From a virus: 21,529 nt of DNA. A model generated the notes under the pieces. That model made no database searches and was not told the origin of the DNA. It was given only the letters and a program-made list of their open reading frames with translations. Each line of letters begins with the position of its first letter. The stretch's first letter is position 1. The DNA lies in IMG/VR virus record IMGVR_UViG_3300046529_000425, positions 1-21,529 of that record. One strand, given 5' to 3'. The translations under genes were made by a program, and so were the position numbers. Below, one piece after another: positions 7,202-16,924 of this stretch.

Positions 7202-8026
7202 GTGAATCGCAAGTTGAATCAAGTCTCTTTGGAGCCTTATGGCTTTAAGGAATCGCAACCAGTACAGCGGCAATCTCGGCTATCACGCAATCTCTTGACG
7301 TATCTCGCCCTCGCTGTGGTCGTCGTCGCCGTGGGTTGCCTCTATTGGGCTTTCCCGCCTTCGCTACAGAACGTCGCCTCATCTCCCGCCAACAACGATC
7401 CCATGTATGTCGCCCGCCGCAATGCTATTGTGCCTGCACCATCGGTTAGCCATGCCTCGACTTACCACGATGTTGTCTACAAAGTAGCTACCAATCGCAC
7501 CGATTATGGCAGCTGGCATTGCTTTAACTTTGATGCAACCTACGAAATGCCAAGTGGCACGGCTCAACGCCCTGCGGCTATTTGCGATGGTGATCGAAGT
7601 GCTATCGTCGATCATCGCACGGCCAATCTTGGTGACTCTGTTTACCTGTCCGTTCAAAATGATGAGTATTACGCGGTCATCTCATGTGAAATCTGGATTG
7701 ACGGCGCCCTCGCATTCCAAACATACTCAGAAGGCCAGTACAAGATCGCGAGTTGTAGCGGTAGCGTTGATGAGTCAAACGCGAAGGATGACTTTCAGCC
7801 GACTCCAGTTCCCACGCCGCGCCCATCCTTTGCAGCTCAGACTAGCAGCGTAGCGACCGCCTATCGAAAGCCAACTACGGATTCCAGCCTCATATTTATT
7901 AACGACACGTCGATTCGAGTAGTGGGCCGTAGTGCGGATAACCAATGGATTCAGCTAGATAATGGCTATTGGATTGAGCGCACGGAAATCTTCTCCGAAT
8001 TGCCGGCTTTGCCCATTACGAATTAG
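7202..8026 (+). CDS. Membrane-anchored MmpS-like / SH3-domain protein (phage cargo gene)
   Basis: This 274-residue protein is encoded against the direction of the tail genes. A basic N-terminus of about 30 residues is followed by one membrane segment (31-51), so the rest should be outside the cytoplasm. Residues about 90-187 resemble the MmpS-like domain: VVYKV at the start, GDSVYLSVQN in the middle, then a CEIWIDGAL...Y-x-IASCSG end with the family's paired cysteines (C162, C185). A PTPVPTPRPS linker (200-209) leads to a C-terminal bacterial SH3-like domain (about 214-264, ending DNGYWIERTEI). The GTG at 7202 follows AAGGA. The stop overlaps the convergent minus-strand stop by 4 bp (8023-8026). 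The region looks less G+C-rich than its neighbours. Its independent promoter, opposite strand and host-type domains mark it as a moron, likely acting on the host envelope in the infected or lysogenic cell. Its exact function is unknown. Confidence 0.75.
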   Translation: MNRKLNQVSLEPYGFKESQPVQRQSRLSRNLLTYLALAVVVVAVGCLYWAFPPSLQNVASSPANNDPMYVARRNAIVPAPSVSHASTYHDVVYKVATNRTDYGSWHCFNFDATYEMPSGTAQRPAAICDGDRSAIVDHRTANLGDSVYLSVQNDEYYAVISCEIWIDGALAFQTYSEGQYKIASCSGSVDESNAKDDFQPTPVPTPRPSFAAQTSSVATAYRKPTTDSSLIFINDTSIRVVGRSADNQWIQLDNGYWIERTEIFSELPALPITN

Positions 8027-9188: not shown

Positions 9189-9743
9189 TCAACCACCGCC
9201 GCCTGTGGTCGCCAGCGGAATCGTCAGCGCCGTCGGCACGGAGAATTGGCGGACACGCAACATGCCGTTGATCAGGCCTTCGTTAACGCCGTGAACGTCC
9301 CATTGCGGGATCAAGTAGTTGTCCACCTGTGCATTGAGTTGCAAGTTGCTGGCTAATTTACATTTGGGCAAGAGGAAATGTATATCCTTGCCGCCCGAAC
9401 CCGACACGCGCCCGGCAATGCCGACATAGGGCACGTCAACGGCGCTTTGGATGTAGAAATCGTAGTAGGCGGCTGTTGAAGTCAAGACGCCACCCAAGAG
9501 CATATTAAAGACGGTCAGATCGATGCTACCGTTCTGGATGGTCAGTGTCGCCGACGCCAAATTGGTAAAGACATCTACGTCTACGTCATCGCCGCGTAAC
9601 GTATCGGTCGAAACGACCCATTGCAGATTGGCCCCGCGCCCGGCGTAGATATCGTAGCCGGGGCCAGTCCACGTATTTTCCGCTGTCCAAAGGGCTATTT
9701 TGATATCCTTGATACCCCTTAAAACCGAAGGTGTTGTTGCCAT
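9189..9743 (-). CDS. Major tail tube protein
   Basis: A 184-residue beta-rich protein that starts MATTPSVLRGIKDIKIALW and contains a central SATLTIQNGSIDLTVFNMLLGG segment. This is the pattern of siphovirus tail tube proteins: a small protein of alternating beta strands with one helix. It would polymerise in hexameric rings around the tape measure. The ATG at 9743 has a strong GAGGAG just upstream. It precedes the chaperone pair, the standard order. It ends in TTGGGG-like glycine residues without an added Ig domain. The call rests on synteny plus composition; no sheath gene is adjacent, in keeping with a non-contractile tail. Confidence 0.75.
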   Translation of the reverse strand: MATTPSVLRGIKDIKIALWTAENTWTGPGYDIYAGRGANLQWVVSTDTLRGDDVDVDVFTNLASATLTIQNGSIDLTVFNMLLGGVLTSTAAYYDFYIQSAVDVPYVGIAGRVSGSGGKDIHFLLPKCKLASNLQLNAQVDNYLIPQWDVHGVNEGLINGMLRVRQFSVPTALTIPLATTGGGG

Positions 9744-10237: not shown

Positions 10238-10587
10238 CCGGTGCGTACCCCCGTTCCCTGTATCTCGCCAAAGGTCAAAATCACGTCCTCGATCCGGTAT
10301 TCGTCGCCGCCCAGCGTGAATTGATAGCCCTCGGCGATGTCGCTGTCCGGTTGGCTCGGATGGTCACGCCAGCCAAAGACAATCACGCCCAGCCGTGGCG
10401 CGCTACCGGCCGCGCTCGTCGCCATCGATGCCCGGTTGTCCACTTCCACGCGCAAGGTCTGCGCCGGCAATCTCAGCGGGCGATTGGGCGGATTCGGCTT
10501 GCGAAAGACGATAACCGTCGGCTTGTCCTGCACGCGCCGGTAAGCATTCTGGGCGCGTTGGGCTGCGCGCTGCGCTAAGTTCACCAT
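10234..10587 (-). CDS. Head-tail stopper/adaptor-like protein
   Basis: A 117-residue protein. Its start overlaps the previous stop by 7 bp (10581-10587) and its stop overlaps the next start as ATGA. The N-terminus is helical and basic (NLAQRAAQRAQNAYRR). A beta-rich body follows, with RLPAQTLRVEVDNR and a closing GDEYRIEDVILTFGEI. Proteins of this size and place, between the connector and the tail terminator, are usually head-completion or stopper proteins. The closing 'EYRIEDV' pattern also fits that group. This is a synteny-based call. Confidence 0.5.
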   Translation of the reverse strand: MVNLAQRAAQRAQNAYRRVQDKPTVIVFRKPNPPNRPLRLPAQTLRVEVDNRASMATSAAGSAPRLGVIVFGWRDHPSQPDSDIAEGYQFTLGGDEYRIEDVILTFGEIQGTGVRTG

Positions 10588-10967
10588 CGGCCACCCCGCG
10601 GATAGAGCGGGTCAACAAGGCCGAACATGGCCGACCCGCCGCCGGCTGCCACGCCGCTCACGGCATTGCTTAACTTGCCATTCCATAAGTCGAGTAGCAG
10701 CTTGTAATGGTCAAAAAGCTGGCTGGCTGATTCCTGGCTGTTGTTCTGGCGGTAGTCGGTGCTGGTGACGGCGGCGGCGTATAGCTGCTCAATCGTAATG
10801 ACACGCGTATAGGCATCCTGCGCGCCGAGCGGGTTGGCCGGGTCGGGATAGGGGACGGCTGCGCGTGTGAAATTGTCCTCGGCTTGGGCATCCGGTAGCG
10901 TTACGATGTCGTCAGGCGCAAGGCCAACGTCAGTCCGCAGCCATTGGTATTGTTGCTGTGTCGCCAA
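10581..10967 (-). CDS. Head-tail connector-like protein
   Basis: I start this 128-residue protein at the TTG at 10967, because GGGAGGG (10976-10982) lies 8 nt upstream. A longer reading to 11108 would overlap the glycosyltransferase by 179 bp and has no better signal. It still overlaps the glycosyltransferase end by 38 bp. The sequence runs TQQQYQWLRTDVGLAPDD, then ITIEQLYAAAVTSTDYRQNN, then a helix with LLDLWNGKLSN, and ends in PLYPRGGRW. Mostly helical connector proteins (HK97 gp6/SPP1 gp15-like) with a GL..DD start and a C-terminal P-x-G-G-R-W tail are typical at this position. They form the ring under the portal. The family assignment is tentative. Confidence 0.6.
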   Translation of the reverse strand: MATQQQYQWLRTDVGLAPDDIVTLPDAQAEDNFTRAAVPYPDPANPLGAQDAYTRVITIEQLYAAAVTSTDYRQNNSQESASQLFDHYKLLLDLWNGKLSNAVSGVAAGGGSAMFGLVDPLYPRGGRW

Positions 10968-11976
10968 CTTGTATGCCCTCCCAAACTGCAAGTACACCGC
11001 TCGCAAACTCGCTCCACGAATAGAGCGCACGCGCCGCCTGAGCCTTACGCGCCAACTGCTCGCTGTACGTCCACCAATGGTCGGCGACGTGGCGTAAGAC
11101 TTTGGCAACCTCTGCCGGGTCTACTTCGGCCCATTCGCCCAAGTCCTGGCTGGCCCAATCTTTGTTCTGCGACCAGGTTGCTTTAGTGAGCGTGTAGGGC
11201 AATGGACAGCCCCATTGCCGCAGCCCGTCCGCCGTGCCGCTCCATGCCGTTGCTAAGGCGAGGCCGCCGGTCGCCGCAAACTCACGCGGCAAGAGGCCAA
11301 AGCCCTCGCCTTTAGATGCGCCAATTAGCACATCGGCGCGGTAGTAGAGTTCCAATAGTTCGGCTTCGTCCATGTCACGCTGGATCACCTCAAAATTCGG
11401 ATTGGTAAAGATAAGGCCGCGTTGCCCAGTTTGATCGGCGGCGCGGCCTTTGAGGATGAGCTTATAGTTCATGTCATCGCCAAAAGCACGTAGAAACGCC
11501 TGTAAGGCCGTTTGGCCGCCCTTGCGCTCCCCTCTATCCAGGAAGGCCAGGAACGTCAAGGGCCGTGGCGTTTGTGGCCTGACACGGTAGCGATACTGTT
11601 CGCCCACGCCGATCGGAATCACATGCAATGGGCTTGTGACTCCGCTTGCGGTAAAGGCATCGGCGCACCACCAACTTGGCACAATCACCGCCGCACAATC
11701 GTTGAGTGGCGCCAGCCACGACGGCGGGATGCGCGACGACTCAAACATACTGATAGCGATGCGCGGCCCGTCGAATAGCCGCGCATCCTGGGCCGCAAAG
11801 CTATAGGGCGGCCCCAAGACGATGCCGCCCGTACCGCATTGCGGCGGCTCCATGCCGGGGCCGTGGGCGATCACGTCTACGCCCAAGCCGCGCAGGTGCT
11901 TAACCAATTGCAGGGCAATCAGGCCATAGCTCTCCCACGGCGTATACGGCACCGGCGAATAGACGGCAATGCTCAT
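10930..11976 (-). CDS. Glycosyltransferase, GT4-like
   Basis: A 348-residue protein starting MSIAVYSPVPYTPWESYG at the ATG at 11976, 1 nt after the previous stop; a longer reading to 12048 is not credible. It has the two-domain GT-B plan. The N-terminal half contains FESSRIPPSWLAPLN and a VIVPSWWCADAF segment. The C-terminal half has the acceptor/donor features FLAFLDRGERKGG (about 143-154) and the GT4 E-x7-E motif EGFGLLPRE (E224, E232), which binds the nucleotide-sugar. It should transfer a sugar from an activated donor; the acceptor is unknown. It sits between the capsid gene cluster and the connector genes in the same transcription unit, so it is made with virion proteins. Possible targets are capsid or tail proteins, or host-surface glycans. 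No truncation is seen. Confidence 0.85.
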   Translation of the reverse strand: MSIAVYSPVPYTPWESYGLIALQLVKHLRGLGVDVIAHGPGMEPPQCGTGGIVLGPPYSFAAQDARLFDGPRIAISMFESSRIPPSWLAPLNDCAAVIVPSWWCADAFTASGVTSPLHVIPIGVGEQYRYRVRPQTPRPLTFLAFLDRGERKGGQTALQAFLRAFGDDMNYKLILKGRAADQTGQRGLIFTNPNFEVIQRDMDEAELLELYYRADVLIGASKGEGFGLLPREFAATGGLALATAWSGTADGLRQWGCPLPYTLTKATWSQNKDWASQDLGEWAEVDPAEVAKVLRHVADHWWTYSEQLARKAQAARALYSWSEFASGVLAVWEGIQVGDTATIPMAAD

Positions 11977-11977
11977 A

Positions 11978-12238
11978 CTAGGCGGGGCGTTTCGGCACAG
12001 CCGGCGCTTGTGGGGTGGCGCTATGATCCGGCGCGTGGTCGAGGCCAACCTGCTCCAGCTTATCCGTGAAACCGGCGGCCTCCTTTTCGGTCAGTTCTAC
12101 CGTGTCACCGGGTTGCAATTCTGGGTTAACGCCCCAGGTCTGCCCCACCTTGACGCGGTAGGTCTTGGTTTCCTCTTCTTTTGGCTGCCCGGCGCTGCTG
12201 CGCGCTATGTGGCGCGGCTTGTTCTCTGACTGTTCCAT
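11978..12238 (-). CDS. Small protein following the major capsid gene, unknown function
   Basis: An 86-residue protein. I take the ATG at 12238, because GGAG lies 8 nt upstream; the ORF can be extended to 12355 but would then overlap the capsid gene. It starts with a basic, polar segment, then has TYRVKVGQTWGVNPEL and GDTVELTEKEAAGF, followed by a Pro/Ala-rich tail ending KRPA. The GDTVELTEKEA pattern with a disordered tail is seen in small proteins encoded next to capsid genes, but I cannot name a family. A role in capsid decoration or a head-tail step is possible. The gene is packed between the capsid and the glycosyltransferase. Confidence 0.6.
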   Translation of the reverse strand: MEQSENKPRHIARSSAGQPKEEETKTYRVKVGQTWGVNPELQPGDTVELTEKEAAGFTDKLEQVGLDHAPDHSATPQAPAVPKRPA

Positions 12239-12240
12239 GA

Positions 12241-13269
12241 TTAGGCTCCTGTGGCGTGGGCCACGCCCAACTTGCTGCCAACTGCCGCTTTGATGATCGG
12301 CGTGTAGACCGCCATCACCTTGAAGCTGTTGAGCATCCCATCGCCGCTTGTCCACTCCCGCGTGGTGCTGGGGAAGTAGCCCGGCACGTAGGCGGCTTGT
12401 ACGGTGTTGCTATCGAGTTGAACCAGCAAGATCGTACCGTCCACCAATTGCGGAATCTGCTCAAAGACGGCAACGTTGGGCATCCGCATAATGCGGTCGC
12501 GCGGCGTGTCGCCGGAGGCGTCGGCGTAGTAGTTGAGGGACGCCGAATTGTATTGGTTGATGGAAGCAAAGACACCGTAAGGGCCATACATGTTTTTCGC
12601 TTGCATGGCGCCAATCATGCCGGCTATGGTCGGTAGAATGTTGGTGATGGTTGTCCAGACGCCGCCGCCAAAGCTGGTCGCTGTGCCGGTAATGCGCGCC
12701 GGATGCGTCGTCAGGCCATAGACGGTACCGCCCTGCATACTGAGGGTCGTGTCGCCGTTGATCAGTAAATCTTCCATCTTCTCGGCGACCACACGGGCGG
12801 CGGCGGCGCCGTTGGCAACGTCAAGGCCGTCACCGAGTAGGCGTGACGCTTGCAGATAGCGTTCGTCCAGCTCAAATTCTTTGGCGATGACCGGCACCGG
12901 CACGCTGGCAATCGTCACGTCAACCAGGTCTTTCTCGACGCTGGCATGGCCGCGGATGGTGGCATTGGCCGGCGTCATTTCGCCGACGGCGTTGTATTGC
13001 GCCACGACGGTGCCGAGGCTGCCCAGCGTGCGCGTGAGGCCACGGCTGATCAGCAGATTGAGCATCCGCAGCGGTGGCACGGCGGCGGCGACCATCTGGC
13101 GGTCAAGCTCTTCCCATTCGTTCTTACGCAGGGCTGAGTTGACGTAGAAGCCGCCAGAGGATTGGATCGTGACTTGGCCGGTGCGCTTGTTGACCACAGG
13201 CCGCCCACCGAGCGTGGCTTGACGCCCGGCGCTTGTGCGAAGGTCGGCAACTTGTAATTGTGTTCCCAT
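12241..13269 (-). CDS. Major capsid protein, HK97-like fold
   Basis: I start this 342-residue protein at the ATG at 13269, because GGGAGG lies 9 nt upstream; the longer frame to 13416 overlaps the preceding gene. The sequence has an N-terminal arm (GTQLQVADLRTSAG), a segment EEWEELDRQM-like helix, then the long spine helix region with VARVVAEKMEDLLINGD, followed by a P-domain loop and a C-terminal A-domain including VVAEKMEDLLINGDTTL and LVQLDSNTVQAAYVPGY. This is the pattern of HK97-fold capsid proteins of the encapsulin-like type: an 'AAR.VA.KMEDLLI.G' helix, a glycine-rich turn and a beta-rich end. Gene order protease/scaffold, decoration, capsid supports it. No separate accessory domain is visible. 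Confidence 0.85.
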   Translation of the reverse strand: MGTQLQVADLRTSAGRQATLGGRPVVNKRTGQVTIQSSGGFYVNSALRKNEWEELDRQMVAAAVPPLRMLNLLISRGLTRTLGSLGTVVAQYNAVGEMTPANATIRGHASVEKDLVDVTIASVPVPVIAKEFELDERYLQASRLLGDGLDVANGAAAARVVAEKMEDLLINGDTTLSMQGGTVYGLTTHPARITGTATSFGGGVWTTITNILPTIAGMIGAMQAKNMYGPYGVFASINQYNSASLNYYADASGDTPRDRIMRMPNVAVFEQIPQLVDGTILLVQLDSNTVQAAYVPGYFPSTTREWTSGDGMLNSFKVMAVYTPIIKAAVGSKLGVAHATGA

Positions 13270-13285
13270 AGTGTTCTGCCTCCCT

Positions 13286-13768
13286 TTAGGCGATACGCAC
13301 GCGGATGCGCGCATCGGAACCAGACGAATTATTGACAGCTTCCTCGGCATAACCGACCAAACTGTCGAGGGCGGTACCGGCGGCGGCTTGCAAGGCCCCG
13401 GTGCCGGCAGACTCAAGCGCCGCGCCTCTGGCGACGTTGGAGCCGGTCTTGATCAGCATATACAGCACGTCCCCCGGCGAGCCGTAGATGTACGGGACGG
13501 TCTCAGCGGCGGCATAGAGGGCGTCAACGGCGAGGCCTGTGCCGGTTGTCGGGTAGACAAAGAGCTTGTCAACGGCAACCTTGCAGCCCTCTTTGTTGCC
13601 GCCGGCAGTAGCGTGCGGCTTGACCGTGCTGGTGGGCGCGCCGACGGCCAAGAGTTGACCGGGGCGGATGGTGGCGGCGGCTTGACAAAGCGACTCAGCG
13701 ACGCGCTGCATCCCGTTGTCACGGTTATTGGAGCGCAGAACAATTGTGCTTGATGCGACGTTTGCCAT
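13286..13768 (-). CDS. Capsid decoration/stabilising protein (DUF2190-like)
   Basis: A 160-residue protein directly before the capsid gene. The ATG at 13768 has GGGAG 8 nt upstream. It is Ala/Gly/Val-rich and contains AATIRPGQLLAVGAPTSTVKPHA, then a segment KLFVYPTTGTGLAVDALYAAAETVPYIYGSPGDVLYMLIKTGSNVARGAALES. 'PGD.vyml...G..v..G..L.s..dG.l' is characteristic of small decoration proteins of the DUF2190 type, which bind the capsid surface and stabilise the expanded head. The protein has no membrane segment or enzymatic motif. Confidence 0.75.
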   Translation of the reverse strand: MANVASSTIVLRSNNRDNGMQRVAESLCQAAATIRPGQLLAVGAPTSTVKPHATAGGNKEGCKVAVDKLFVYPTTGTGLAVDALYAAAETVPYIYGSPGDVLYMLIKTGSNVARGAALESAGTGALQAAAGTALDSLVGYAEEAVNNSSGSDARIRVRIA

Positions 13769-13771
13769 GAG

Positions 13772-14440
13772 TTAGGCTCCCTTCTGCTCAAACATGGGCC
13801 AGTGCATGATCAGCTCTTCCTCTTCCGGGCCAATGTTGCGTAAGGCGCCGGCGTTGGCGGAATAGTCACGCGGTTGATAGCTGCCGTAAACGTTGCGGAG
13901 CTTGTTGGTGTCCCAGCCCTTGACATCGGCCTCGCTCAGGGCACCGCGGCTGTTGGCGGCGATACCGGCGATCAGGCCGGCACGCTCTTCGTTGACGTTG
14001 GCGGTGACGTGGCCCAACATCTCCTCAATGCGTGCCAGGCGCGCCATGAAGTCGGCGCCCAGAGGGCTCCCGGAAGCCATTGGCGGCAATGCGGCTGGAG
14101 TGGCTACCACTTCTGCCGCTGCCTCGCTGGGTGCGGCGTCGGGTACGTCTAGGCTTTCTTGCAGCACTTGCAGGTCGGCTTCGTCCCACGTTGCCAACTT
14201 CTCTTTGGCAAACTTACATTTGGCGTTGGCGGTAAGTGCGCCAATTAACTCGTTCTTGTTCATTGCTGAACTCTCCTCCATTGATAAGTTTGGTTCGATG
14301 GCGATTTGCCCATCCACCGGCTCACAAGAGCATGGCGGATCGGAAACTATGCCCTCGGCATTGCCGATTGGGCTTTGATTTTCAGACTGGCTGCTTTTGA
14401 GCCAGCCGAGGAAACGTTGGATTAGAGTTTGCTCGTCCAT
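13772..14440 (-). CDS. Putative nested scaffold protein, in-frame internal start of the protease gene
   Basis: Two in-frame ATG codons inside the protease/scaffold ORF have strong ribosome binding sites. The ATG at 14440 (residue 191) follows a perfect GGAGG at 14446-14450, 5 nt upstream. The ATG at 14263 (residue 250) follows AGGAG at 14273-14277, 9 nt upstream. The first lies just after the protease domain, so it would release the scaffold domain as its own protein of 222 residues; the second gives 163 residues. Lambda does this with C and Nu3. It is a plausible, untested prediction here; the GGAGG also encodes part of a Leu-Glu-Val segment, so chance cannot be excluded. Confidence 0.45.
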   Translation of the reverse strand: MDEQTLIQRFLGWLKSSQSENQSPIGNAEGIVSDPPCSCEPVDGQIAIEPNLSMEESSAMNKNELIGALTANAKCKFAKEKLATWDEADLQVLQESLDVPDAAPSEAAAEVVATPAALPPMASGSPLGADFMARLARIEEMLGHVTANVNEERAGLIAGIAANSRGALSEADVKGWDTNKLRNVYGSYQPRDYSANAGALRNIGPEEEELIMHWPMFEQKGA

Positions 14441-15010
14441 ATCAACCTCCAGACTATTCACACGCGGCGTACCGCAGCCGTCCGCCCAGCTACACGCGCC
14501 GACCTCATCCGGCAAGAGCGCCAAATGGTCGGGGCGAATGTTGCGCGCCGTGGCGGCATAGGTGGAACCGTTAAACATGCCGGGCGCGGCGTCGATTTCG
14601 GAGAAGTAGCCGGTGCTGACTTCCATTGGCGCGCCCAGGCGTAAGCGATTAACGATGGTCATCGCCTTTGGCCCCATCTGTTGCGCCTTGTCGAGGTCGA
14701 TCCAAATCTCGCCCTTGAGCGCGCCGTCAGCGACGGCCACGTTCCACAGATGGCCCAGCACGTCATTGGCCCAAATGTCGGGTGTATTGGCGCTGGTGTA
14801 GCCGCCTTCGTTCCTGGGATGGCTGATGGGCACGGGACGGCCTTGCCAACTAGAGGCAAACTTGCCAAATTCGGCGGCGGATACGAACACGTTGTTTAAG
14901 ATGCCTTCACGCAAGGCGACGACCGGCGAAACCAGATAGCGCCGCCCACCGTGGCTGATCTCTTTGACTTGGCCTGTCGTGGCGTTGGCGGCCAGTTGGA
15001 GCGTGCTCAT
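13772..15010 (-). CDS. Prohead protease (DUF2213-like) fused to a scaffold domain
   Basis: A 412-residue protein whose ATG overlaps the previous stop (ATGA at 15007-15010). Residues about 1-185 look like the DUF2213-type prohead protease: GRPVPISHP with a candidate catalytic His64, EVSTGYF with Ser132, and RPDHLALLPDEVGACSWADGC near 159-180. From about 190 on the sequence is acidic, Ala/Glu-rich and helical, as in scaffolds (KNELIGALTANAKCKFAKEKL, then a run with LARIEEMLGHVTANVNEER). The protease should cut the scaffold and capsid proteins during head maturation. Two in-frame internal ATGs with good ribosome binding sites (14440 and 14263) would give scaffold-only products. The C-terminus ends LIMHWPMFEQKGA. 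The catalytic residues are suggested by family pattern, not proven. Confidence 0.8.
   Translation of the reverse strand: MSTLQLAANATTGQVKEISHGGRRYLVSPVVALREGILNNVFVSAAEFGKFASSWQGRPVPISHPRNEGGYTSANTPDIWANDVLGHLWNVAVADGALKGEIWIDLDKAQQMGPKAMTIVNRLRLGAPMEVSTGYFSEIDAAPGMFNGSTYAATARNIRPDHLALLPDEVGACSWADGCGTPRVNSLEVDMDEQTLIQRFLGWLKSSQSENQSPIGNAEGIVSDPPCSCEPVDGQIAIEPNLSMEESSAMNKNELIGALTANAKCKFAKEKLATWDEADLQVLQESLDVPDAAPSEAAAEVVATPAALPPMASGSPLGADFMARLARIEEMLGHVTANVNEERAGLIAGIAANSRGALSEADVKGWDTNKLRNVYGSYQPRDYSANAGALRNIGPEEEELIMHWPMFEQKGA
14273..14279 (-). promoter_or_regulatory. Internal ribosome binding site, scaffold start 2
   Basis: GGAGGAG lies 9 nt before the in-frame ATG at 14263, at the beginning of the NKNELIG helix of the scaffold domain. 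Confidence 0.45.
14446..14450 (-). promoter_or_regulatory. Internal ribosome binding site, scaffold start 1
   Basis: GGAGG lies 5 nt before the in-frame ATG at 14440, inside the protease/scaffold ORF and right after the protease domain ends. Confidence 0.45.
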
Positions 15011-15207
15011 GAGGATGTCATGTTGTCCGTGGCCTTGACGGCGGAATTGGCTTGCTTGAAGGCGGCCTGGTCACAGCTTTTGCCGCCGGTCGTTTGGCAG
15101 CGCGCGTAGGCAGCCTGCCAAACGTGCAGCCACATGCGGCGGCGTTTGCCCGATAGCTTCTTCACGTAATCAGGGAGGGTTGGGTCATTCGGCCCTGTGT
15201 ATGGCAT
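15007..15207 (-). CDS. Small ChaB-like protein at the head of the capsid module
   Basis: A 66-residue protein. The ATG at 15207 has GGAG 7 nt upstream, and its stop overlaps the protease start (ATGA). The sequence starts MPYTGPNDPTLPDYVKKLS and continues KRRRMWLHVWQAAYARCQ, GGKSCDQAAFKQANSAVK. The order of an MPY...LP..V..L start, a helix with a conserved Trp/Val pair, an AY motif and a closing 'AF..A...VK' helix resembles the ChaB fold, a small helical protein. Proteins like this often precede DUF2213 proteases in phages. It is the first gene after the terminator at 15231-15271. Its function is unknown. Confidence 0.65.
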   Translation of the reverse strand: MPYTGPNDPTLPDYVKKLSGKRRRMWLHVWQAAYARCQTTGGKSCDQAAFKQANSAVKATDNMTSS

Positions 15208-15230
15208 GGGTCAACTCCAGTTTTGATGCC

Positions 15231-15271
15231 AATAAAAAAACGCCCTACCGCCATTGCTGGCTGGTAGGGCG
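15231..15271 (-). terminator. Intrinsic terminator closing the terminase-portal-MuF transcription unit
   Basis: In minus-strand RNA, CGCCCTACC (15271-15263) pairs perfectly with GGTAGGGCG (15249-15241). Three further pairs follow after a bulge, around a short AGCAAT loop. The stem is followed by TTTTTTTATT (15240-15231). This is a strong leftward intrinsic terminator. It lies about 100 nt after the 15373 gene and just before the 15207 gene, so the capsid module must have its own promoter or depend on read-through or antitermination. Confidence 0.85.
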
Positions 15272-15285
15272 TCTTGCGCCTCTAA

Positions 15286-15291
15286 AGTATA
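15286..15291 (-). promoter_or_regulatory. Weak -10-like box before the terminator
   Basis: TATACT (15291-15286) on the minus strand has the form of a sigma70 -10 box, but no -35 sequence is found at the expected distance, and transcription would run straight into the terminator. It is a possible start for the capsid module only if termination is controlled. Confidence 0.2.
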
Positions 15292-15302
15292 AAATTCACC
15301 CG

Positions 15303-15360
15303 CGACAGGTACGATGCTCCCCCGATGAGCGCCGGTAAAGGCGCGACACCGTACCTGTCG
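15303..15360 (-). ncRNA. Structured inverted-repeat element (candidate RNA structure or operator pair)
   Basis: The perfect 11-bp repeat CGACAGGTACG (15303-15313) / CGTACCTGTCG (15350-15360) encloses 36 nt. In minus-strand RNA four more pairs (two of them G-U) extend it to 15. Inside it, GCGCC and GGCGC form a smaller stem around TTTACC. The element begins 12 bp after the stop of the 15373 gene and ends 32 bp before the terminator hairpin. It may be a regulatory RNA, a processing/protection structure, or two DNA-binding half-sites: both arms carry ACCTGTCG, which also occurs in the terminase upstream region. No known RNA family is recognised. Confidence 0.45.
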
Positions 15361-15372
15361 GTTATGTCTATC

Positions 15373-15573
15373 TTACTCTGATTTTTTTCCAGTGTCTAGC
15401 CCGCGCAGGATTTCGGCCAAATTAAACTGCGCCACTTGTTTGCGGTCGCTGCGGCGAATCTCCAGCACCATGCCATGCGCGTCAAGGCGAGCGCACAGCT
15501 TGCCATTCTCGTCGCGCAAGTCCGTCCACTTTGCCGCGCTATTAGTTTGGATGGTTGGGCTAGGCTTGCTCAT
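15373..15573 (-). CDS. Small protein of unknown function, last gene of the terminase module
   Basis: A 66-residue protein starting at the ATG at 15573, which overlaps the methyltransferase stop as ATGA; a longer reading to 15603 would overlap more of that gene. It begins with a polar SKPSPTIQTNSAAKW stretch, then has DENGKLCARLDAHGMVLEIRR and KQVAQFNLAEILRGL. The second segment looks like a small beta-hairpin followed by a helix. No family is recognised. Coupling to the methyltransferase suggests co-translation. Confidence 0.6.
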   Translation of the reverse strand: MSKPSPTIQTNSAAKWTDLRDENGKLCARLDAHGMVLEIRRSDRKQVAQFNLAEILRGLDTGKKSE

Positions 15574-16196
15574 GTGCCCCACCAGCGCCCCACATCGCCC
15601 CACAGCAGCATGTAGACCGTATTGGCAGCGGGAGATTGGCCGTTATAGGCGAGTGGCGGCCTGTCATCTTCTATCTGCTCCCACAAATGACGTACCGGGT
15701 CAGTCTTATCCATACGCCAACAAGCCGCGGCGTCGTTCTCGCCCAGAACAAAGCGGTCAACCCACGGCCCGCCGCCTACCCAAGCCGGTTGACCATAAGG
15801 AAGCGTCACGAACAATAAACCGCCCGGCGCAAGCCAACGGCGCAGCCCCCGCAAGGCGTCAACAAGCTCTTCCATGTCGTGCAAATGGTCAAGCGTGCTG
15901 ATGCAGATGATCAGGTCGAATTGGTTGCCAGGCTGCCACGTCAGCACATCGGCATTGGTCACGCCGGGATACTCTTCATGTAGATCGATGACCGTGTGGC
16001 CGTCATCAGGCCAGCCCACGCGGTAATGGGGCAGCACGGCGCCCACTTCCAGAACAGAGGCGTCTCCGTTCGTGGCTTGCCCCAATAGGAATAAGCCAAC
16101 CGGCACCTCGACGGCGCGCTCGTTTTGGCGCGTACCGTTATAGTCGCTGACTTGATAGGGAAATGTTCTGCCGGCTAGCGTAAACGTTTCGCTCAT
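15570..16196 (-). CDS. SAM-dependent methyltransferase, class I, surface-glycan type
   Basis: A 208-residue protein with ATGA overlaps at both ends (16193-16196 and 15570-15573). The class I fold is visible: motif I SVLEVGAVLPHY (about 67-78), an acidic VIDLHEEYPG strand end that would bind the ribose of SAM, DLIICISTLDHLHD (about 114-127) as motif IV, and LAPGGLLFVTLPYG as the post-motif strand. The order 'VLEVG.VL.HY', 'IsTLdH' and 'LaPGG.l.vT.P.G' matches a methyltransferase group found in bacterial surface-polysaccharide loci; DNA methylases lack this pattern (no DPPY/NPPY). The predicted substrate is therefore a sugar or another small acceptor. It sits between the MuF-like gene and a small unknown gene, in the head cluster. 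Its partner may be the glycosyltransferase at 10930-11976. Confidence 0.8.
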   Translation of the reverse strand: MSETFTLAGRTFPYQVSDYNGTRQNERAVEVPVGLFLLGQATNGDASVLEVGAVLPHYRVGWPDDGHTVIDLHEEYPGVTNADVLTWQPGNQFDLIICISTLDHLHDMEELVDALRGLRRWLAPGGLLFVTLPYGQPAWVGGGPWVDRFVLGENDAAACWRMDKTDPVRHLWEQIEDDRPPLAYNGQSPAANTVYMLLWGDVGRWWGT

Positions 16197-16924
16197 GCTT
16201 TGGTACCGATGTATTGCGCTTCCGTCCCCGCTTCGACTTCCATGCGAACCAGATTACAAGCGCAATGCCCACCGCACACACTGTCGCTCCCAGGCGGCGG
16301 CAATAGGCCAAACGGCTGCCAGCCCTGGTCGTAGAAGTCCACACAATCCGGGCAGCTTTTGCCGCCCCCGCCCAGCATACGGCGCTCCAGGATCGTCCTA
16401 TTCGGCGCCGATGGCTTGACCGTGGCCCGTTCCGCCGTGTAGAAGTGGCTGCGCGCATGGCCGGCGTACTCGTTGGCGCGCGCCTGGGCTTGGGCCATGC
16501 TAATCTTGCCGTCCGCTATATCCTGCGCCGTGCCGCTAATCTTGGCGTAGAGTTGGCGTAGATCTGCGCCGGCGCGGCCATATTCGGCCTGTGATACCTG
16601 ATCCCAACCGCCACTACCCAGGGCTGTTTGCTGAAGCACTTGGCGCTTGAGTTCGGTACGCATTTCCTCCTGCCAAACCGCCGGGCTGATGCGCCCTTCC
16701 ATCACGGCATTGGTCAAGTCGCCCAAGCGCGCTTCCGTGGCGTTGGATTGCGACTCCAACAGGCCCAGGATGTCACGGCGTGCCACAAAGCGGCCCGTTG
16801 CGCCGCTGCGGTAGCGGCCAACATCGCCCTCCCAGGAATAGCCGGGGAGCGGGTTAGTGCGCGTCGAGAAGGCGTTTATATTTATTGGGAACGGCGTCGC
16901 TCGCATACCAGTCCTGCCTTGCAT
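16193..16924 (-). CDS. MuF-like head morphogenesis protein (SPP1 gp7-like)
   Basis: A 243-residue protein after the portal region. The N-terminal half is helical (LESQSNATEARLGDLTNAVMEG). The C-terminal half contains a cysteine cluster typical of the MuF/gp7 domain: CPDC (191-194), then CGGHCAC (217-223) in front of NLVRMEVE. The cluster can bind zinc. Such proteins are minor head proteins bound to the portal and are ejected with DNA in some phages. It overlaps the upstream 87-aa gene by 71 bp. The ATG at 16924 is preceded by AAGG; the ATG at 16906 with AGGA is an equally good alternative. No toxin domain is fused to the C-terminus, as occurs in polymorphic MuF proteins. Confidence 0.75.
   Translation of the reverse strand: MQGRTGMRATPFPININAFSTRTNPLPGYSWEGDVGRYRSGATGRFVARRDILGLLESQSNATEARLGDLTNAVMEGRISPAVWQEEMRTELKRQVLQQTALGSGGWDQVSQAEYGRAGADLRQLYAKISGTAQDIADGKISMAQAQARANEYAGHARSHFYTAERATVKPSAPNRTILERRMLGGGGKSCPDCVDFYDQGWQPFGLLPPPGSDSVCGGHCACNLVRMEVEAGTEAQYIGTKA

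Follow-up and report, generated by a model that had tools for sequence, protein, structure and literature searches.

The window, by which we mean the whole stretch of DNA that was analysed, is an IMG/VR virus record of 21,529 bases in which the virion genes and two enzyme genes, one for a glycosyltransferase (GT) and one for a methyltransferase (MT), lie on the minus strand. The GT, P0001, is a predicted GT4-type enzyme (GT-B fold) of 348 amino acids (aa) encoded at 10930..11976, as assigned from profiles, an alignment and an AlphaFold2 (AF2) model, and the MT, P0002, is a predicted class I S-adenosylmethionine (SAM)-dependent methyltransferase of the VLEVGAVLPHY type (208 aa) encoded at 15570..16196, as assigned from profiles, a motif scan and an AF2 model; both reading frames are open at these positions. 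When the DNA was read, an ATGA overlap was found between the stop of the MuF-position gene (16193..16924; phrog_24776 in PHROGs, function unknown) and the start of the MT gene, and a second one between the MT stop and the start of the next small gene, g76 (15373..15573). The ATG of the GT gene starts one base past the stop of the preceding small gene, g86 (11978..12238), which lies between the capsid gene and the GT gene. The GC contents of the GT gene (0.604) and the MT gene (0.592) are at the level of the window (0.595). The neighbouring genes, all on the minus strand and named by profiles and tblastn, include those for the large terminase subunit (TerL, matching PF17289), the portal (identified by tblastn to annotated portals) and the MuF position. 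Between g76 and g86 lie a short gene in the MuF-protease slot (15007..15207; 66 aa), a DUF2213, head maturation protease-like gene (13772..15010; profiles phrog_760 and phrog_12864), the head decoration gene (13286..13768; phrog_766) and the major capsid gene (12241..13269, start inferred; DUF6260/encapsulin-like, PF19774/PF04454 and phrog_771). Directly after the GT gene comes the connector-position gene g103 (10581..10892), whose start is not fixed and which has no library match, and the major tail gene lies at 9189..9743 (profiles phrog_4971/phrog_88). The decoration, capsid and major tail proteins are possible acceptors of a sugar. An earlier note on this DNA had described a GT4-like enzyme with an intact E-x7-E motif between the capsid and connector genes, and a methyltransferase with VLEVG.VL.HY and ISTLDH motifs that is ATGA-coupled to the MuF-position gene, and both descriptions are borne out by the gene layout and by the profile matches given below.

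P0001 scored 35.4 bits against the PF20706 GT4-conflict profile (cut-off 26; E 8e-9) and matched the glycosyltransferase family phrog_2170 with an E value of 1.8e-29. Its E-x7-E motif is E224/E232, and in an alignment of 63 sequences (P0001 and 62 relatives) E224, R151, K152 and R178 are the same in every one and E232 in 97% of them; we take the E-x7-E pair to be catalytic and R151 and K152 to be residues that bind the donor phosphate. The AF2 model of P0001, with a predicted local distance difference test (pLDDT) score of 93.4, has a two-domain GT-B fold across its whole length. The nearest folds are MshA (Z 29.1; root mean square deviation, rmsd, 2.6; 307 residues aligned) and the chlorovirus protein B736L (Z 28.6; 3.2; 325), followed by sucrose-phosphate synthase (28.5), BshA (27.4; 3.2; 306) and PimA (26.4; 3.1; 307). 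B736L is also the best single-sequence match in the PDB (E 0.0038), and in a profile search of the PDB it ties for first place with 7qsg at 1.7e-12. Neither P0001 nor P0002 has a transmembrane-like stretch, the maximum 19-residue Kyte-Doolittle value of the GT being 1.3. When viral contigs were scanned with P0001 alone, only 100% copies were found; such single-protein scans reach close relatives alone. By fold, family and conserved catalytic residues, as judged from the sequence and the model, P0001 is a soluble GT-B/GT4 enzyme.

P0002 exceeds the cut-offs of PF13489, PF08242 and PF08241 and contains VLEVGAVLPHY and ISTLDH. Its AF2 model (pLDDT 93.4) has a Rossmann methyltransferase fold, with 838 of 1000 chains at a Z of at least 8, and the top match is NodS (Z 12.5; rmsd 3.4; 150 aligned), with Trm9 (12.3), CgnL, YunM, CalS10 (12.0), CcbJ and TylM1 (11.8) within 1 Z unit of it. 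Thus sugar enzymes are common in the top structural tie, yet Trm9, CgnL and YunM, which are not sugar enzymes, tie as well. By sequence no tRNA-modifying family fits the MT better, since in PHROGs two 'methyltransferase' families (0.039 and 0.05) come before a 'tRNA methyltransferase' family (0.082), but the fold leaves Trm9 next to NodS. The glycine-rich GxGxG motif I is not found in P0002 and EVG[A/N/H]VLxHY stands in its place. Because E50, V51, G52, V54, L55, H57 and Y58 are invariant in an alignment of 30 sequences, this alignment marks motif I of P0002 as a conserved variant and not as decay. The (D/N/S)PP(Y/F/W) amino-methylase motif was not seen in P0002 by eye and no DNA-methyltransferase family in Pfam, PHROGs or NCBIfam matched it, in agreement with the earlier note, according to which the MT lacks DNA-methylase motifs. 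An MT-family profile found no solved relative among PDB sequences at E 0.001, tblastn of P0002 against 50,697 phage records gave no match, and scans with P0002 alone returned only 100% copies from viral contigs and none from genome contigs. P0002 is a class I SAM methyltransferase by profile and model, with a predicted methylating activity.

When the association of the two genes was examined, a scan for the MT motif gave 46 loci, of which 43 encode family members, two of these being the window's own species; the other three (L078, L082 and L110) were dropped because they have no match to the MT gene. In the sets of 42, 50 and 67 used below the window's species is counted once, and L115, which is of that species and whose contig ends before the GT with no GT in its record, was left out of the counts for P0001-like GTs, PF13692 and PF00535. 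Eight records have VGAVLPHY, and a P0001-like GT was found in 6 of the 7 that were searched, the seventh (L103) ending in the MT gene, versus none of the 35 records with other MT variants; two of the six, L076 and L104, are near-identical here. A GT4 domain (PF13692) was found in 20 of the 42 MT records and in 4 of 43 portal-anchored controls (p 9.3e-5), and a class I MT domain (PF08241) in 18 of 50 GT records and in 2 of 42 controls (p 2.7e-4), in Fisher tests that treat related records as independent and with controls corrected for neither length nor relatedness. The summed length is 931,908 bases for the 43 controls and 1,029,793 bases for the 42 MT records; the 50 GT records were not length-matched. 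These 50 come from the 67 GT loci described below; L130 and L147 are represented by L131 and L148, with which they have common GT tails, and L025, one of the four PF13692-positive controls, was left out of the PF08241 controls. The GT lies within 2.4 kb of the MT motif in 15 of the 20 records, at 4.7 kb in the window and at 11-12 kb in four, and the nearest PF08241 match is on the strand of the GT in 18/18 and within 1 kb in 12/18. G076 and G082 are the two PF08241-positive controls, and they alone among the controls exceed the cut-off of PF13692, at a distance of about 1 kb. PF00535 was found in 8 of the 42 MT records, over its cut-off in 2. Outside the species of the window, P0001 and P0002 both have their nearest relatives in L076 and L104 (in L076, 62% identity for the MT and 59% for the GT), and in L076 the MT and GT genes adjoin between g93 and g154, a place that in L025 is taken by the GT gene alone.

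The position of the GT was examined with an alignment of six query GTs, all from phage contigs, five from virion modules and the sixth from L084, whose surroundings were not checked for virion genes. It matched 142 places in viral contigs, of which 80 were kept, and merging those with the same last 250 residues left 67 loci. With virion-gene hidden Markov models (HMMs) that were iterated within the same GT loci that they scored, a head or tail family gene was found within 2 kb of the GT in 64/67 loci, the exceptions being L159, L177 and L196, and in 51/67 such a gene lies within 200 bp on one side or both. The GT comes directly after the major capsid gene in 24 of the 67, with the strict order capsid-GT-g103 in 21 of these; in 15 loci the tail-completion gene g154 is nearest upstream and in 15 the major tail gene g184 is nearest downstream. 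The accompanying capsid families vary (phrog_771; PF25209/phrog_3116; phrog_3990). Cultured phages that have this GT family include Streptomyces, Rhodococcus, Arthrobacter and Microcystis phages, the Microcystis phage match falling in a gene annotated 'methyltransferase FkbM'. In Arthrobacter phage KellEzio the order is annotated tail terminator, GT (HMM E 2.7e-36), gp29 and the g184-like gp30 (2.4e-8). The location of the pair in a virion-building module is therefore confirmed and recurs across the GT family; the description as a head gene cluster fits the window, but relatives often have the GT beside tail-completion and major tail genes. The earlier observation is thus real and more general than could be seen from the window. 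Among the titles and abstract openings listed by searches of open-licence papers, none told of a conserved capsid-GT-connector order or of methyltransferases tied to it.

A record of 41,679 bases, G001, has GT and MT genes identical to those of the window. It looks complete at about 41.55 kb because the stretch at its start (L006) recurs at position 41,552 (the end, L008) as a direct terminal repeat of about 127 bases. G001 encodes an integrase, an IrrE-like (IrrE/M78-type) peptidase, a Clp-like protease and an M23 lysin, and therefore the window phage is probably a temperate tailed phage. In genome contigs a portal alignment reaches six loci, all distant and from different phyla, which do not settle the host assignment; the TPT-rich linkers may point to Chloroflexota as host. 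Among the tail genes of the window there is a lone plus-strand ORF (open reading frame; 7202-8026 (+), 274 aa) with a GC content of 0.518 versus 0.595 for the window, a hydrophobic N-terminal stretch by eye and no Pfam match, which is possibly a moron. In the sister phage G003, which has neither GT nor MT, a DNA-methyltransferase-like gene with a DPPF motif was seen by eye in another region (29241-30908 of its record, in L018).

The slots occupied by the two genes are also found with other enzymes. L148 has the order MuF position, GT2-like gene, MT, protease, capsid and GT4, and L155 has MuF, MT, protease, capsid and GT4, so that both repeat the two slots of the window (MuF-protease for the MT and capsid-connector for the GT) with other MT types. 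The MuF-position protein of L148 has no Pfam match and that of L155 matches PF04233 only, below the cut-off. L154, too, has its MT match ahead of the protease and after a MuF-like frame; this frame (L154:64-1860 (+)) seems by eye to carry an intein/Hint-like insertion. After the MT in the MuF-protease slot of L155 there is a gene of 232 aa (L155:4423-5121 (+)) that is sulfotransferase-like by eye, with a P-loop-like start, and for which Pfam, PHROGs and PDB sequence searches gave nothing. The portal-alignment scan gave 47 viral loci. Among sister phages, L023 has in the MT slot a gene of 214 aa (L023:12364-13005 (+)) that by its coordinates is ATGA-coupled to MuF; it is weakly GT34-like (PF05637, E 9.8e-4, below the cut-off) and matched nothing in PDB sequences or PHROGs. 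In L084 an MT of this type is fused to a Methyltransf_24/CmcI-like domain and lies beside a GT2-GT4 fusion, another MT and a GT4, and in L108 the MT is flanked on both sides by genes that look GT-like, one of them by Pfam. Between the connector and tail genes of L139 (9778-12111 (+)) a GT2-like gene (below the cut-off) and a PF03214 reversibly glycosylated polypeptide (RGP) gene (E 5.5e-34) were seen. When 53 of 78 cluster representatives of GT neighbours, P0002 included, were scanned with Pfam, methyltransferases and GT1/GT2 were found, as were HNH, terminase and other families. Four matches were single: an RGP, a UDPG/GDP-Man dehydrogenase and one each of the epimerase/GDP-Man-dehydratase and sugar C-methyltransferase types.

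A fairly probable explanation of these findings is that the pair is an accessory virion-glycosylation cassette with a GT core and exchangeable tailoring enzymes. Because the genes sit in a virion unit, the GT and the MT would be made late, together with the head and tail proteins, and would act on a virion acceptor. The soluble GT4 enzyme would move a sugar from a host nucleoside diphosphate (NDP)-sugar to a structural protein (capsid, decoration or major tail), either directly or onto a sugar already present on it, and the MT would then O- or N-methylate that sugar, its predicted role being most simply to cap the sugar. As the GT is found in this position alongside several capsid families and also next to tail genes, a tail or connector protein may be the acceptor too, not the capsid alone. 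We infer which donor and acceptor are used, where the methyl group goes, in what order the steps follow and what the benefit is, which may be masking or tuning of the particle surface, and also that both enzymes work on a single glycan of a virion protein. The interpretation in the earlier note is partly supported, namely in the GT4 type, the absence of DNA-methylase motifs from the MT, the location among virion genes and the association of GT with MT. If the GT family is locked into the head/tail operons of many phages, it could mark virion glycosylation at the level of genomes; the linked methyltransferases, in turn, lead one to expect that glycans of bacteriophage particles are tailored (methylated), in parallel to chloroviruses. 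A wider reading, which we put forward tentatively as somewhat short of an even chance, is that environmental phages have a widespread modular virion-glycan system in their head/tail operons, in which phages of different capsid families retain the GT4 core at the capsid-connector or tail-terminator/tail-tube junction and swap tailoring enzymes in the MuF-protease slot and the GT flanks. The swapped enzymes would be several kinds of MT and GT2-/GT34-like enzymes, with RGP-like proteins, a sugar-nucleotide dehydratase/dehydrogenase and a C-methyltransferase as single cases, and perhaps a sulfotransferase. If so, related phages would wear different particle glycans, a surface diversification like that of chlorovirus antigenic variants.

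Several results weigh against the proposed virion-glycosylation cassette. In L074 the MT is 59% identical to that of the window and the GT, with one gene between them, only about 29%, so that the GT partner was exchanged, and among the 80 GT loci an MT-family match was found in 8 and the VGAVLPHY type in 4. L025 has a 56% identical GT in the connector module, behind the small protein g93, but its MuF-protease slot contains no MT, and PF08241 matches nothing in its record (G047). A strict co-evolution of the two genes was therefore rejected, the GT of L074 being distant and that of L025 having no MT. The sister G003, with 79% identity to the window in the portal and 64-71% in the capsid, decoration, protease and MuF proteins, has neither enzyme. 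Neither was seen in L024 or L026, in whose records PF08241 and PF13692 match nothing, and L022 has no MT, the GT side of its contig being cut. In the MT-less G003 and L024, g76 comes directly after MuF. Because sisters lack one or both enzymes, the GT and the MT are both accessory and neither is needed to build such particles. The expected co-occurrence in related phages thus stands as an association that beats the controls, with their lack of correction, and not as an obligate pair; the gene content supports a one-sided linkage in which this MT type comes with a GT and the GT is mostly without the MT. The random carriage of one gene alone by related phages, which the earlier note held to speak against its idea, is thus half borne out. 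In addition, the Ser/Thr content of the capsid and decoration proteins is that of the GT-less sister, and no nucleotide-sugar enzyme was found among the 10 further ORFs of G001 that were scanned, so that a host donor would be needed. The GT synteny could reflect plain module inheritance, the g154 HMM does not match KellEzio gp27, and the GTs of StarPlatinum and Beuffert (Streptomyces) and Trina (Rhodococcus) precede ribonucleotide reductase (RNR) and lysin genes, outside the capsid-tail core. The GT-family HMM does not match Che8 gp108-110 at E up to 10, and according to the review PMC9614988 the acceptor of B736L is unclear and the capsid glycans of NY-2A are without mannose.

That the enzymes alter a host surface glycan, in serotype conversion or superinfection exclusion, and not the virion is unlikely. 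It would suit a phage that looks temperate and an MT whose fold resembles small-molecule and sugar methyltransferases, and phage GTs have been read as host-glycan modifiers, for example in pelagimyophages (PMC7029224). However, the genes lie in a virion unit with the MT coupled to the MuF-position gene, the relatives of the GT keep to virion modules even where the capsid family differs, and the GT has no transmembrane-like stretch. O-antigen conversion sets are made up of membrane GT2 and flippase genes close to the attachment site; no flippase was found among the ORFs scanned, which were not every ORF. It is also rather improbable that the GT alone acts on the virion, with the MT only loosely linked to it and methylating another target (protein, tRNA or a small molecule). 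The low counts of MT among the GT loci, the lone GT of L025, the different GT partner in L074 and the structural ties of the MT with Trm9, CgnL and YunM are in its favour. What speaks against it is the occurrence of P0001-like GTs in 6 of 7 VGAVLPHY records and in none of 35 with other MT variants, together with the enrichment of GT4 domains with the whole MT family and of other class I MTs beside the GT. Hypermodification of phage DNA, with the GT glycosylating and the MT methylating modified bases, is very improbable: GTs of phages can modify DNA (a point also made in PMC7029224), but the MT has neither the amino-methylase motif nor a DNA-methylase family match, no hydroxymethylase or oxygenase was found among the 10 further G001 ORFs scanned (not every ORF), and the location is in a virion module.

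The proposed virion-glycosylation cassette can be compared with known systems. Phage virion glycosylation has been reported for a few mycobacteriophages. In Che8, Corndog and Myrna phage GTs glycosylate capsid and tail tube proteins (PMC12363180, PMC11256854), and the window is like them in that the GT is phage-encoded. Unlike in the window, the Che8 GTs are near the right genome end, and the accessible parts of these two papers mention no methyltransferase partner for mycobacteriophages. PF20706 is named GT4-conflict, a Pfam name that points to conflict systems, but P0001, although above its cut-off, sits among virion genes. The sugar methyltransferases NodS, CalS10 and TylM1 have the fold of P0002 in common, but at 13-20% identity, with non-sugar enzymes tying and with an atypical motif I in P0002. 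In Rhodococcus phage Peregrin there are a GT and a methyltransferase, for which the authors suggest virion glycosylation (PMC13313380); the GTs of Peregrin (by tblastn) and Trina (by HMM) belong to the family of P0001, and Trina differs in the place of its GT, given above, and in that the MT HMM does not match its methyltransferase. In chlorovirus PBCV-1 the GT A064R and methyltransferases build an O-methylated capsid glycan, the enzymes named being A064R and A061L, so that there, as in the window, a GT and a class I SAM methyltransferase are virus-encoded, and the PBCV-1 set makes a methylated virion glycan; A064R differs from the GT4-type P0001 in that its domain 1 is GT34-like and its domain 2 is a new GT family, and in that the virus is algal (PMC9614988). 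The best sequence and fold relatives of P0001 include the chlorovirus protein B736L.

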